Source: an uncultured Treponema sp. | Lineage (GTDB): Bacteria > Spirochaetota > Spirochaetia > Treponematales > Treponemataceae | Length of the DNA stretch: 49,174 nucleotides | Direction of reading: 5' to 3' | Assembly (NCBI GenBank): GCA_946532115.1 | Contig: CAMNBC010000002.1 | Location: forward strand, 1 to 49,174 | Program-made: the position numbers and the translations under genes | The notes under the pieces: generated by a model | Told to the model about the DNA's origin: nothing | Database searches by the model: none | The model's input: only the letters and a program-made list of their open reading frames with translations | Shown here: one piece after another, positions 1 to 46,779 of the stretch | How the letters are laid out: the number at the start of each line of letters is the position of its first letter | How positions within the stretch are numbered: position 1 is the first letter of the stretch

Positions 1-881
1 ATGTAAAGGCAGATGTTATAGAAGTTTATAAACTTATTGCCGCCGCAGAAAGCAATGCACATGGAAAGCCAGTCACAGACATTCACTTTCATGAAGTTGG
101 CACAATGGATGCAATTGCAGACATCACATCTGCTTGTTTGCTGTTCAACAAAATCGGCGCTAAAAATATTTTCTCATCTGCAATAAATGTGGGCTCAGGA
201 CAGGTTCACTGTGCCCACGGAATTCTTCCGGTCCCTGCCCCTGCAACAGCCTTTATCTTAAAAGACATTCCAATCTACAGTAATCATATAAAAGGCGAGC
301 TTTGCACTCCAACAGGAGCTGCCCTTCTCAAGCATTTTGTAAATCACTTTGGAACTATGCCACCAATTAAGATGAGCGCAATCGGCTACGGAATGGGTAA
401 AAAAGATTTTGAAGCCGCAAACTGTGTCCGCGCAATTCTTGGAGATTCAGATGAAAAGCCGGAAACAATTCTTGAATACACCTGCAATCTCGACGACATC
501 AGTGCAGAGAGAATCGGTTTTGCAATGGAGCAGTTATTTGCAGCAGGAGCGGTAGAAGCCTACACAATTCCTGTAACAATGAAAAAATCCCGACCGGGCC
601 ACTTGCTTTGTGTAATGTGCCGTGAACGCGACAAACAGAAAATTCTCGAAACAATTTTTAAACACACAACAACCCTTGGAGTACGCGAAAATATCAGTAA
701 CCGCTACTTTCTTGAGCGAAGTATAGAAACTGTAAAAACAGAGTTCGGCGATATCCGCATAAAACGCGCAGAAGGTTACGGTGTAAAAAGAGAAAAATAT
801 GAATACGAAGACCTGGCAGCAATTGCACGTAAGACTGGTTTGAGTATTGAAGAAATAGTACAAAAAATCACACAGGAGTAA
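1..881 (+). CDS. larC: LarC, nickel insertion protein for the nickel-pincer cofactor (5'-truncated)
   Basis: LarC inserts nickel, in a CTP-dependent reaction, into the pyridinium bis-thiocarboxylate mononucleotide that becomes the NPN cofactor of lactate racemase-type enzymes. The reading frame is open from base 3, so the gene begins upstream of the window; the ATG at 105 lies inside it and is not the start. The visible 292 residues include the early FHEVG motif followed by D-A-I-A-D, and a C-terminal half starting around LEYTCNLDDIS that corresponds to LarC2. In some lactobacilli larC is split and joined by frameshifting; here both halves lie in one uninterrupted frame. The Shine-Dalgarno of the next gene (AGGAG) overlaps its stop, so the two are probably co-translated. 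No racemase or larB/larE is visible, so the client enzyme is unknown. Confidence 0.88.
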   Translation, partial: VKADVIEVYKLIAAAESNAHGKPVTDIHFHEVGTMDAIADITSACLLFNKIGAKNIFSSAINVGSGQVHCAHGILPVPAPATAFILKDIPIYSNHIKGELCTPTGAALLKHFVNHFGTMPPIKMSAIGYGMGKKDFEAANCVRAILGDSDEKPETILEYTCNLDDISAERIGFAMEQLFAAGAVEAYTIPVTMKKSRPGHLLCVMCRERDKQKILETIFKHTTTLGVRENISNRYFLERSIETVKTEFGDIRIKRAEGYGVKREKYEYEDLAAIARKTGLSIEEIVQKITQE

Positions 882-887
882 AAAAAG

Positions 888-2072
888 ATGGCAGACTTAT
901 CGCACAGAAAGGCTGAAGCAAAAATCCAGCTTAAAGGCTCGGATGGAAAACCACTCGCAAACACAAAGGTTCACATTAATCAGGTGAATCACGAATTTCT
1001 TTTTGGCTGCGGAGCCTTTGAAACTCTGCCCTACACTAACGACACACCAGATGCTCGCATGGAAGACCGCATGCAAAAATGGCTCGGCCTCTTTAACTAC
1101 GGAACTCTGCCATTTTACTGGGGCGGTTTTGAACCGGAAGAAGGCTCTCCACACACAGAACAGCTTATAGCAGCTGCAAACTTCCTTAAAAGCAAGGACG
1201 TAACCGTAAAAGGTCATCCATTGTGCTGGCACACAGGTTGTGTTCCATGGCTTATGAATTACGACAACAAAACAATTTTGCAGAAGCAGCTCGAACGCAT
1301 TCACCGCGATGTAGGCAATTTTAAAGGCATAATTGATATGTGGGATGTTATCAATGAAGTTGTAATCATGCCGATTTATGACAAATATGATAATGCCATT
1401 ACAAGAATCTGTAAGGAACTTGGCCGCGTAGGACTTGTAAAAAAAGTTTTTGATGCTGCACAAGAAACAAATCCGGATGGAATCTTCCTTATTAATGATT
1501 TTAATCTTTCTACAAACTATGAGATTTTGATTGACGGCTGTCTCAATGCCGGCACTCCAATCAAGACAATCGGCTTGCAGTCACACCAGCACCAGGGCGT
1601 ATGGTCTTACGAAAAGACAGAAGAGATTCTGAGCCGCTTTGAACACTTTGGACTTCCAATCCACTTTACAGAAAATACAATTGTTGCAGGACCACTCGTT
1701 GCTCCGGAAATCACAGACCTTCAGGACGCACATTATGATGACAATGCAGCAACTCCAGAACTCGAACAAAAGCAGGCAGACGATCTCGAAAAGATGTATC
1801 GTAATCTTTTTGAAAATCACCCTCTTGTTACAGCAATTACAAACTGGGACTTTGGTGACGGAGCCTGGCTCAACGCACCAAGCGGCGTAATCCGTAAAGA
1901 CGGTTCATTGAAGCCTTCTTACGAAAGACTCCACCACCTTATAAAAGAAGAATGGCACACAGAGTATGATGCTGCAACAGATGCAGAAGGTTATGTAACA
2001 GTAAAAGGCTTTAAGGGAAAGTATGAAATTACCGCTGCAGATAATGTAATCACTTACAAATTAACTAACTAA
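888..2072 (+). CDS. GH10 endo-1,4-beta-xylanase, probably cytoplasmic
   Basis: Hydrolyses internal beta-1,4-xylosidic bonds of xylan or xylo-oligosaccharides with retention. Family GH10 marks are clear: GHPLCWHT near residue 110, the acid/base Glu157 in WDVINEV, IGLQSHQH near 228 and the nucleophile Glu262 in HFTEN. The 394 residues have no signal peptide or lipobox, so the enzyme most likely works on imported oligosaccharides. The N-terminal 45 residues before the barrel resemble the short beta-rich lead-in common in gut GH10 enzymes. It starts 6 nt after larC with a good Shine-Dalgarno inside the larC stop region. That pairing with a cofactor gene is unusual. The assignment to GH10 is firm; the cellular site is inferred from the missing signal. 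Confidence 0.92.
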   Translation: MADLSHRKAEAKIQLKGSDGKPLANTKVHINQVNHEFLFGCGAFETLPYTNDTPDARMEDRMQKWLGLFNYGTLPFYWGGFEPEEGSPHTEQLIAAANFLKSKDVTVKGHPLCWHTGCVPWLMNYDNKTILQKQLERIHRDVGNFKGIIDMWDVINEVVIMPIYDKYDNAITRICKELGRVGLVKKVFDAAQETNPDGIFLINDFNLSTNYEILIDGCLNAGTPIKTIGLQSHQHQGVWSYEKTEEILSRFEHFGLPIHFTENTIVAGPLVAPEITDLQDAHYDDNAATPELEQKQADDLEKMYRNLFENHPLVTAITNWDFGDGAWLNAPSGVIRKDGSLKPSYERLHHLIKEEWHTEYDAATDAEGYVTVKGFKGKYEITAADNVITYKLTN

Positions 2073-21012: not shown

Positions 21013-21103
21013 CGCAAGCACAGCTTGCGTTTGAGCCGGTTTTGAGGATAATCCTAAAACGACCCTCGCGGCTCGTTTTTTAACGGATTTTCGATTTTAG
21101 GCA
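21013..21103. repeat. Full-length dispersed repeat (TCGTTTTTTAACGG family) upstream of ettA
   Basis: Contains CGCAAG-CACAG-CTTGCG hairpin, then CCTAAAACGACCCT, GGCTCGTTTTTTAACGG and TTTTCGATTTTAGGCAT. The central 35-bp part is almost identical to the copy at 40875-40962. On the minus strand it begins with an ATG and codes for the tail of the upstream ORF. The element sits exactly between two copies of the ettA start. Confidence 0.8.
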
Positions 21104-40874: not shown

Positions 40875-40962
40875 TAAGTCGGCAAGCACAGCTTGCCTCT
40901 GAGGCATTTTTTCGATGAACCTAAAACGACCCTGTCGGCTCGTTTTTTAACGGTTCTTCGAT
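40875..40962. repeat. Full-length dispersed repeat overlapping the end of the RND pump gene
   Basis: TCGGCAAG-CACAG-CTTGCC, then CCTAAAACGACCCT-GTC-GGCTCGTTTTTTAACGG and TTCTTCGATTTTCGCCTCAT. The middle matches the ettA copy (21013-21103) almost base for base. On the minus strand it supplies the last eight codons (MRRKSKNR) and stop of the pump. The same core in the ettA copy is read in another frame. Confidence 0.8.
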
Positions 40963-43900
40963 TTTCGCCTCATAACCAAACTATAAAGTACAGGAATTAC
41001 CAGCAGGGTAACAAATGTACTTGAAATCAAGCCTCCAACCACTGCAATGGCAATTGGCCTTACCATTCCAGACTGTCCGTCTGTTGTAAAACACATTGGA
41101 AGCATACCAAGAATTGTTGTAAGTGTTGTCATCAATACCGGTCTAAAACGGCTCTTTCCGGACTCAAAGCATGCCTGTTTCAGTTCATATCCACGACCAA
41201 CCAGAATATTAGTGTAGTCAACAAGAATAATACCATTATTAACTACAATACCTATCAGCATGATTACACCTACGGCTGTCATAAACGAAAGTGCTTCGCC
41301 TATAATTTTATGAATCAAAATTACACCAATAATAATGAACGGCATTGTCGCAAGGTTAATGAGAGGAGCTTTAAATGATTCATAAGTAGCTGCCATTACC
41401 CCAAATACAAGCAGAATGGCCATAATTGCAATTCTTGCATAGAAACCATACTGGCTCATTGTATCTTTCCAGGCACCTTTATAATTAAGTACAACGGAAT
41501 CCGGGATGATTACATTTTCCTGAATTGCCGCCTTAATTTCTTCTTCAATGACATTGTCATTTTCTTCTGTAAGATTACTTGCTCGTACATGAATTATTCG
41601 CTTCTGGCTTTCACGGCGTATAGAAACCGGGCCCAAACCTTTTTTGATTGAAGCAAAGTTTGCAACGCTTACCATGCCTCCGTTGCCCCGAACGTAAATT
41701 GATTCAAGATCATTTATTGTTTTGCGGTCTTCTGGTCTATACGCTACTACGACACTATAATCTTTACCATTACTCTTGTATGTACAGGCTGTTGAACCAT
41801 TTATCGCATAGTTGATTTCGCGGGCGACTGTTGCAATGTCTACGCCCATACTGTAGGCGCGTTCGCGGTCTATTACAATTTCTACCTGCGGTAAACCTTT
41901 GTCCATACTTACAGAAGGCTCACTGATTTTTTTATTTGCAGAAATTACATCACGTATTTCTTCTGCTGTATCAAGTGCTGCATCTAGATCATCAGAAAGA
42001 AGAACAATATCAACACTGCTTCCCATCCATTGCCCGCGGAATCCTTCACTGAATGAAAGTCGGGCATTTGGAAATTCTGAAAAATGCCTGCGCAGCTTAT
42101 TTTTCATTTCATCTGCTGAATCAATTTGTTTAGCAGTTTCCGGCAGCGCAATTGTAATAGAACCACGGTTTGTGTTGCGGCCACCAATAGATGTAGTAAC
42201 AGTTTTATAGCCCTTACACTCTTCCTTTACATAAGCTTCAAGAGCAAGCACAACTACCTTTGTTTCTTCAAAAGGAGTAGCTGTGGCCATATTTATGTTC
42301 AATTGAACCTGATCATCACGTCCGGCCGGAATCTGATTAATCTGCATTGTCGGAATAAAGGCAAAGGAAATTACAAGAATACAGATAGCAGCTGTAATTG
42401 TTATAAGACGATTATCCAATGCCTTTTTCAAAATTTTCGCATAAATACGTGTAAAGAACTGAATTACGCCTTCAAAAAATCCATAAAGCATTTTCAAAAC
42501 AGGATTTGTTACAGGCTTTTCTTTTCGATTGGAAAGAGGAAGGAATTTTCCAGCCAAAACCGGTACGAGGAAAATTGCAACAAGAAGTGATGAAACAAGA
42601 GCAATTACAATTGTAAAAATTGCAGCTTTAAACATCTGCCCCATAAACCCCAAATCTTTAATAAAGAAGATAAAAGGAATGAATACGCAGATTGTCGTAA
42701 GATTTCCAGAAATTACAGACATCAGCATTTCCTGAGATCCTAGTACAGCTGATGTTCGCGGCTTGGCCCCACGCTGTCTGTATGCATAGATATTATCTAT
42801 CATAACGATAGATGCATCTACAATCATACCAACACCAAGAATCAAACCTGTCAAAGTCATCATATTAAGGGTAAGACCAAACATGCTCATTGCAAAAAGC
42901 GTAATGATGATAGAGAGTGGAATAGAAATTGAAATGATGATTGTAGACTTAAAGTTTTGTAAAAAGATAAATAGAATAACTACAGCAAGAATCAGGCCCT
43001 GCCATGCAGAAGTAATAAGTGTGTTTATTGTTTCACGAATAGCATCCGTAGAATCTTGAATGATTTGCAGAGTTACGTCAGGAGGAAGATTATTCTCTGC
43101 CTGTTCAATCTTTTTGTAAACATTATTTGCAACCGTAACAGAGTTTGCATCCGACTGTTTTGTAACGCTTATATAAACACCTTTTTCCCCATTAATAAAA
43201 GATTCCTGTGTCGTATCTCCATAACCAATTGAAGCTTCGCCTATGTCCCTAAGACGAATGCTATAACCATTTATTGTTGAAATTACAGTATCATTAATTT
43301 CGTCAAGGCTGGTATATTCACCAGTTGTTCGTACAATATAATTTTTATGACCTTCCTGAACCTTTCCACCACCAAGTTCAAGATTCTGTCTTGAAAGAGC
43401 ACTTGTAACGGTAGGTACTGTAAAACCATATGCTGCCATACGGTTTTGATCCAGTTTTACATTTACCTGTGCTGCTCGACCTCCATAAACTTCTGCTTCA
43501 CCAACACCATCAGCCTGTTCCAGAATACTAACAACGTTAGTTTCAGCAATTGATTTCAGGTCATCTACAGAACGGTTACCGCGAATAAGGATTCGCATAA
43601 TCTCACCGTTATCTCCAGAAAAACGAAAAATCGTAGGAGTTCCAGCATTATCTGGCAGCGCGCGTTTTACTCTGTCCAGCTTATCACGAATATCATTCAT
43701 CGCAGCTGTAAGGTCTGTCCCATATTCGAATTCAAGAGAAACATTTGAAGACCCCTCATTCGAAGTTGAAGTAAGGTTTTTAAGACCATTTACACTCATA
43801 ACGGCACTTTCTATAAGCTTAGTTATTGATTTTTCAACAGATTCAGGGTCAGCATTCGGATAAGATGTATTGATAGAAAGAGACGGATTTTCCATTTCCG

Positions 43901-46417: not shown

Positions 46418-46448
46418 TAAAAAAAACGTGCATATCTTAATGCACGTT
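46418..46448 (-). terminator. Intrinsic terminator after the tRNA remnant cluster
   Basis: AACGTGCAT pairs with ATGCACGTT (9 bp) and on the minus strand is followed by a run of T. It would end transcripts coming from the tRNA-Thr side. Confidence 0.8.
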
Positions 46449-46457
46449 AAAATGTTG

Positions 46458-46482
46458 AGCCGACTGTCAGACTCGAACAGCC
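46458..46482 (-). pseudogene. tRNA-Thr 3' fragment 1
   Basis: On the minus strand GGCTG-TTCGAGT-CTGAC-AGTCGGCT matches the T-loop and 3' acceptor end of the intact tRNA-Thr at 46707-46779. Upstream of the T-arm all tRNA sequence is replaced by a G9 run and GC-rich repeat, and the T-stem no longer pairs, so the gene is broken. Confidence 0.65.
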
Positions 46483-46561
46483 CCCCCCCTCCAGTCGCAG
46501 ACTTCGTGTCTGCTCCTTCCGGGCGTCTACGCTCGCTGCCGCCGCCATTGTATAGAACTCT

Positions 46562-46587
46562 AGCCGACTTTCGGACTCGAACCCGCC
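46562..46587 (-). pseudogene. tRNA-Thr-like 3' fragment 2, joined to a repeat
   Basis: GGTTCGAGTCCGAAAGTCGGCT on the minus strand keeps the T-loop, the 3' T-arm and the 3' acceptor strand. The sequence before it is the TCGATTTTAGGC end of the dispersed repeat, so the element joins the tRNA remnant inside its T-arm. Confidence 0.65.
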
Positions 46588-46610
46588 TAAAATCGAAGAA
46601 GCGTTAAAAA
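46586..46610. repeat. Fragment of the TCGTTTTTTAACGG repeat in the tRNA region
   Basis: GCCTAAAATCGAAGAAGCGTTAAAAA is the same end as in the ettA copy (GCCTAAAATCGAAAATCCGTTAAAAA in reverse orientation), truncated before the central part. Confidence 0.65.
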
Positions 46611-46660
46611 CTGGGCTGCAACAGCAGGCCAGTTTAGCTTCATCGATAAAAAAGGCGACT

Positions 46661-46697
46661 ATAAAAACAAAACGGAGCCCGTTGAGAACTCCGTTTA
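46661..46697 (-). terminator. Terminator of tRNA-Thr
   Basis: AAACGGAG pairs with CTCCGTTT, followed on the minus strand by TTTTGTTTTTAT. It lies 10 nt past the tRNA 3' end. Confidence 0.8.
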
Positions 46698-46706
46698 TAT
46701 ATTATG

Positions 46707-46779
46707 AGCCGACTAACAGACTCGAACTGTTTACCTGCGCGTTACGAGTGCGCTGCTCTACCAGGTGAGCTAAGTCGGC
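46707..46779 (-). tRNA. tRNA-Thr (anticodon CGT)
   Basis: A complete 73-nt cloverleaf on the minus strand: acceptor GCCGACT/AGTCGGC, D-arm GCTC...GAGC with ACCTGGTA loop, anticodon stem GCGCA/CGCGC (one mismatch next to the loop), loop CTCGTAA with anticodon CGT, variable AGGTA, T-arm AACAG-TTCGAGT-CTGTT. CCA is not encoded. It reads ACG codons. Confidence 0.92.

Follow-up and report, generated by a model that had tools for sequence, protein, structure and literature searches.

The rtT (RttR) repeats of the E. coli tyrT operon (Rfam RF00391) lie in tandem and in variable copy number behind a tRNA gene, with an inverted tRNA-Tyr 3' sequence (GGGGAAGGAT) at the left, a GA-rich hairpin core and a direct ATCCTTCCCCCACCACCA at the right. 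We find rtT in 4,703 of 5,426 E. coli genomes at 1 to 14 matching places, and E. coli annotation describes it as processed from the tyrT transcript. PMC4986893, citing Bosl and Kersten 1991, reports that rtT modulates the stringent response.

Here, we analyzed a stretch of 49,174 nucleotides from an uncultured Treponema sp. (GCA_946532115.1, contig CAMNBC010000002.1; hereafter the window). Its tRNA-Thr locus carries an array of two decayed units, which belong to a widespread tRNA-tail repeat with an rtT-like layout, and complete units of this repeat occur behind tRNA and tmRNA genes of many other spirochaetes.

The tRNA-Thr locus of the window

The tRNA-Thr 3' end (AGCCGACTNNCNGACTCGAAC) is present three times, with copies starting at 46458, 46562 and 46707, so that a pattern search bears out the three tRNA tails and the start-to-start spacings of 104 and 145 bp reported in a preliminary description of this DNA. 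Allowing up to 3 mismatches, a degenerate pattern has exactly 3 matches in the window where 0.03 are expected from shuffled sequence, and a genome-wide pattern search of the own 2.45-Mb assembly returns the same three copies only. This assembly is a draft MAG of 284 contigs and 73% completeness in which single bases near 46481-46489, a C9 run inside the locus, need caution. As the preliminary description had also noted, the third copy alone belongs to a full tRNA, the only one that ARAGORN calls as complete (Table 1), and the other two are broken within the T-arm, starting inside it and extending to the tRNA 3' end. On the minus strand, the T-stem 3' halves of these partial copies read CTGAC and CCGAA compared to CTGTT in the resident tRNA, and they are therefore not simple recent duplicates of it.

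Table 1. Features of the tRNA-Thr locus in the order of the minus strand, followed by matches to TD-2 at other loci
Feature	Position	Strand	Remarks
Intact tRNA-Thr(CGT), T-stem AACAG/CTGTT	46706..46779	-	ARAGORN; Rfam tRNA 57.5 bits
Terminator-like hairpin 1, between tRNA and rep B	46670..46696	-	11 pairs, T-rich tail
Rep B, REP-like palindromic repeat; inverted arm absent here	46585..46656	-	also dispersed in the genome
Direct tRNA-Thr 3' copy no. 2, GTTCGAGTCCGAAAGTCGGCT; bounds the rep B unit downstream	46562..46582	-	
Truncated rep A, 5' half lost	46470..46562	-	cmsearch: L024 1571-1663, 55.7 bits, E 7e-15
Direct tRNA-Thr 3' copy no. 1, GTTCGAGTCTGACAGTCGGCT; bounds the rep A unit downstream	46458..46478	-	
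Terminator-like hairpin 2, 3' of the last tRNA copy	46425..46448	-	9 pairs, T-run
TD-2 sub-threshold matches	L188 1029-1112, L226 711-795, L197 4438-4528, L220 3205-3302	-	

Along the minus strand, the tRNA is followed by a terminator-like hairpin, a dispersed REP-like repeat (rep B), tRNA copy 2, a truncated copy of a structured element (rep A), tRNA copy 1 and another terminator-like hairpin. Both spacers are thus non-random, and the earlier view of them as a GC-rich repeat plus a fragment of a dispersed repeat holds. The GC-rich repeat matched by the second spacer turns up again 3' of tRNA-Thr in further genomes of the genus. The cmsearch match of the truncated rep A terminates inside the next tRNA copy, and the second hairpin resembles the one directly 3' of the intact tRNA-Thr in a related genome (G003, L026). 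The preliminary description had missed that a full element also bears, in inverted orientation, a copy of the T-arm that matches its own tRNA. This arm is gone from both decayed units of the window, so that their membership rests on the rep A match, on rep B and on the tRNA copies.

Rep B has more than 12 other matches in the own genome, several of them intergenic and without a tRNA fragment at their ends. At tRNA genes of other species, an inverted T-arm copy borders it on one side and a tRNA 3' copy on the other. At one tRNA-Ala (L070), units of rep A alternate with units of rep B, and the tRNA-Ala 3' end together with a hairpin delimits every one of them. Rep B-like palindromes with a conserved AAGTCGGCAAGCACAGCTTGCCTCTGAGCC arm also lie between genes in the window (40907-40965 and 21077-21102) and on other contigs of G000; we regard these intergenic palindromes as a REP-like family of their own.

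A structured element behind tRNA and tmRNA genes

Genomes of the same genus show the complete layout, which is constant: the tRNA, a terminator-like hairpin, an inverted copy of the T-arm of that tRNA, a folded core and a direct copy of the tRNA from the T-loop to the 3' end, often with a second terminator downstream. Such units are non-coding and about 190 to 200 bp long, and a full unit holds a folded element of about 130 to 150 nt with either core A or the unrelated core B and a right-end box reading GTTCAAG (type 1) or GCCAAAT (type 2). Since filled loci have a terminator-like hairpin after the tRNA and in many cases a further one after the copy, the tRNA remains complete and its transcription unit is kept closed.

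Both the anatomy and the distribution of rep A are well supported. A first model, built from 8 copies, finds rep A in 103 of 146 genomes of the genus, often in tandem at about 200 bp, and does not detect it in the other 43. With a second model, built from 123 matches, it is found in 127 of 195 genomes of the family (15 of 20 genera) and in 49 of 296 genomes sampled across the phylum, other orders and classes included. Among the matches listed for an exact core pattern over the genome collection are almost only spirochaetes, such as Treponema bryantii, T. berlinense and Treponema sp. C6A8, along with one Tannerella-labelled contig that may be misbinned. For 197 of 225 distinct rep A copies, the same strand holds an intact tRNA or tmRNA gene of one of 26 kinds no more than 900 nt upstream, and most of the other 28 come after a tRNA 3' half, a preceding unit or the edge of a contig. 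No Rfam family covers rep A or the other elements in a search of the window and the element loci (matches to L20_leader, mir-1 and anti-hemB were dismissed as weak and not credible). We found no description of such repeats in Treponema in the largely open-access literature covered, and the structured tRNA-tail element of spirochaetes looks unreported so far.

The fold of core A is conserved through compensatory change. In two alignments of matches, both fitted to the structure and thus favouring the covariation figures, 97% of paired cells hold standard pairs, 28 of 30 pairs have changed on both sides across many genera, and the covariation score reaches 0.546 and 0.620 compared to 0.160 and 0.173 after shuffling and at most 0.086 with slid partners. 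A structure-free MAFFT alignment of the first 8 copies has double changes in 16 of the 30 pairs. The conserved purine loops between the helices could, judged from their sequence, form tandem G-A pairs. G-U pairs account for 1.0% to 2.1% of conserved core pairs but for 8.6% in the tRNA stems of the same loci, and with both sets as minimum-energy folds they make up 9.5% in the hairpins behind the tRNA and 3.4% in the elements. This scarcity hints that the core fold matters in DNA rather than in RNA.

These data bear on the possibility that the units are functional small RNAs of the rtT kind, transcribed behind the tRNA and freed by tRNA processing, with the arm base-pairing to the pre-tRNA or 3' copy and so creating a processing signal. 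The strong covariation of the core would fit such an RNA, as would the shared layout with rtT, its annotation as a processed part of the tyrT transcript and its reported role in the stringent response. However, a terminator-like hairpin separates the tRNA from the element at most gut-treponeme loci, G-U pairs are nearly absent, many genomes of the genus lack a detectable element, and the RtT model finds nothing above its cut-off in 30 genomes of the genus while scoring on the E. coli control. We therefore consider a small RNA possible but rather unlikely.

The inverted arm and the turnover of units

The ends of the units follow their host tRNA. For the left arm, the longest exact match has a mean of 12.7 nt with the own tRNA and of 5.9 nt with other tRNAs, and for the right copy these values are 19.0 nt and 6.2 nt. 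The direct copy begins at C56 of the tRNA in 66 of 128 copies, and the inverted arm spans approximately tRNA positions 54-65 for the majority of tRNAs and 45/47-58 for Thr and Ala-GGC, thereby covering the junction in both types. Tracking of the T-stem was demonstrated for Thr and Ala-GGC loci only: at 41 distinct Thr/Ala loci the arm equals the resident tRNA at positions 48-52 in 93% to 100%, where 33% to 61% would be expected if the two were independent, and it also follows minor tRNA alleles (19 of 22 at position 49, 13 of 13 at 51 and 12 of 12 at 52). The downstream copy agrees with the resident tRNA at these positions in 17% to 73%, and the arms follow that tRNA at variable-loop and T-stem bases that are absent or mismatched in the downstream copy. 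The arm thus answers to the tRNA gene, and the view of a plain terminal inverted repeat, in which it would match the downstream copy alone, is rejected at the Thr/Ala loci. Positions 56-66 favor the tRNA by 29 to 2, a count that is biased since the arm span was chosen by its tRNA match.

A close match between neighbors could also arise neutrally if slippage and template switching duplicated tRNA tails around hairpins and the arm were copied and quasi-palindrome-corrected from the nearby tRNA. The arm and the tRNA are indeed near each other and exactly matching, identity among the tandem copies of an array is about 91%, and low G-U content fits correction at the DNA level. Yet a core conserved with compensatory changes throughout many genera calls for selection or a copying machinery, and at L063 and L065 the arm of the second unit fits neither the preceding copy nor the resident tRNA, so that correction is not general. 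Overall, we judge such a neutral origin unlikely.

Core identity falls from about 91% between tandem copies to 74% between different tRNAs of one genome and 69% between different genomes. The within-genome value barely exceeds the one between genomes, so there was no recent burst, and the units have long been resident, turning over locally in tandem and jumping rarely. At the tRNA-Thr/grpE locus, the site is empty in two species (G050 and G100) and holds rep B units in four others (G035, G045, G233 and G244), of which two have an intact and two a decayed 22-bp copy; in G045 and G233, rep B is bounded by this 22-bp tRNA 3' direct repeat. Two hairpin types occur at this locus in either order. 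At the window's locus, the order of hairpin and T-stem types in G003 is opposite to that in G000, and it is likewise reversed between G140 and G089, where the resident tRNA matches the first unit in both. Such changes of unit order could come partly from ordinary recombination between direct repeats.

By eye, a cNMP-binding gene upstream of tRNA-Thr is common to the species compared (L025-L034, L050) and the downstream gene differs in nearly all of them, which marks the tRNA tail as a synteny breakpoint and as a site of rearrangement, too. Integrase and transposase are absent from the commonest Pfam families listed for 43 downstream and 41 upstream ORFs beside arrays, and no mobilizing protein was identified among these neighbors.

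Taken together, these comparisons uphold one part of the earlier proposal that the locus is a scar of repeated integration and excision: the tRNA 3' end is mobile or rearranging, with junctions in the T-arm and with filled and empty sites in related species. They speak against its other part, by which tyrosine-integrase islands with tRNA-Thr as their target would have left attachment-site scars. Such islands would account for the T-arm junctions, the displaced tRNA 3' copies, the variable downstream flanks behind a conserved upstream gene and the HsdM gene that adjoins one array. They do not account for non-coding units of 190 to 200 bp that share a conserved folded core behind so many kinds of tRNA and tmRNA, and no integrase family is prominent nearby, making integrase-bearing islands a very unlikely source.

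Several other features were observed. Among the 43 genes beside arrays, HsdM and BrxA, which may serve in defence, occur as single cases and are too few for enrichment; the former is a type I restriction-modification hsdM gene downstream of the array at L008. At the same locus (1330-1390, G000:C97) and at L110, L118 and L217, a tRNA-Met 3' half without its 5' half precedes rep A; the break is close to the anticodon loop and looks like a split of the gene by another element. At L077 (about 857-985, plus strand, G093), a palindromic insert measuring some tens of bases (GATAGTTTATAAAAAAACAGTCCACTGGACTATTTTTTTATAAACTATC and flanks) breaks a tRNA-Ala gene close to its anticodon. Spacers of tRNA-Ser arrays in termite-gut treponemes have Rfam TD-2 matches of 33 to 39 bits, below the gathering threshold of 48.7 (Table 1).

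We favor, at about an even chance, that this is an rtT-like repeat targeting tRNA tails that is probably spread or maintained via recognition of the T-arm, and of which the window holds a decayed two-unit array. Recombination at the T-arm would let units move in, move out or relocate, where the inverted arm at the left of the unit spans the junction point and the unit ends in the direct tRNA 3' copy. With very few G-U pairs in the core, the arm may act as a target-recognizing guide in DNA, and by being targeted again and again, a tRNA would preserve the match of the arm while older units degrade, as seen in the window.

A bolder version, which we hold only tentatively and think rather improbable, makes rep A the non-coding part of a nucleic-acid-guided homing system. 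Its arm would be a guide of about 10 to 13 nt complementary to the tRNA gene that crosses the T-loop junction (tRNA 47-58 or 54-65), a trans-acting recombinase would read the core, and insertion would restore the tRNA, with repeated homing into the same tRNA keeping the guide matched. This guide-target hypothesis is testable. For the tRNA-tail-targeting repeat that we favor, an odd scar at one tRNA becomes a structured element, widespread in a bacterial phylum at tRNA and tmRNA 3' ends, whose complementarity follows the host tRNA, and the evolution of the T-arm and the order of arrays become a readable record of unit turnover.

Comparison with known systems

Similar to the spirochaete units, integron attC sites are folded imperfect palindromes that bound exchangeable modules of changing order. 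We rejected this assignment since the right-end boxes differ from GTTRRRY and neither a gene cassette nor an integron integrase was seen. Palindromic repeats of the REP/MITE type are likewise short, non-coding and folded. Dispersal without a common host gene is found for rep B, which also occurs outside tRNA loci, but not for rep A, which is essentially confined to tRNA and tmRNA 3' ends and has end sequences that vary with the host tRNA.

Tyrosine-integrase elements at tRNA 3' ends also restore the tRNA on one side and leave a displaced 3' copy on the other with a junction in the T-arm, and the spirochaete inserts share with them a bounding direct repeat of the tRNA 3' end and empty sites in relatives. 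Unlike these elements, the units are only about 200 bp long, non-coding and devoid of an integrase, and they carry a folded core and an inverted arm.

In layout, the spirochaete units match rtT, with an inverted tRNA 3' copy at the left and the 3' end of their own tRNA at the end of the repeat. They differ from rtT in the range of 26 tRNA and tmRNA kinds, the terminator-like hairpin in front, the second unrelated core (rep B) at the same junctions and an arm that tracks the T-arm of the resident tRNA. The sole sub-threshold RtT match in Treponema (L290) lies neither at a tRNA nor at rep A. Searching E. coli with the second rep A model (R2), the four rtT copies are the best 4 of 19 matches, with a best E of 0.11 at which we do not claim homology. 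Rep A and rtT thus have the same architecture while their homology is not proven, and the puzzling rtT repeats of E. coli might be explained as one case of a broader architecture.
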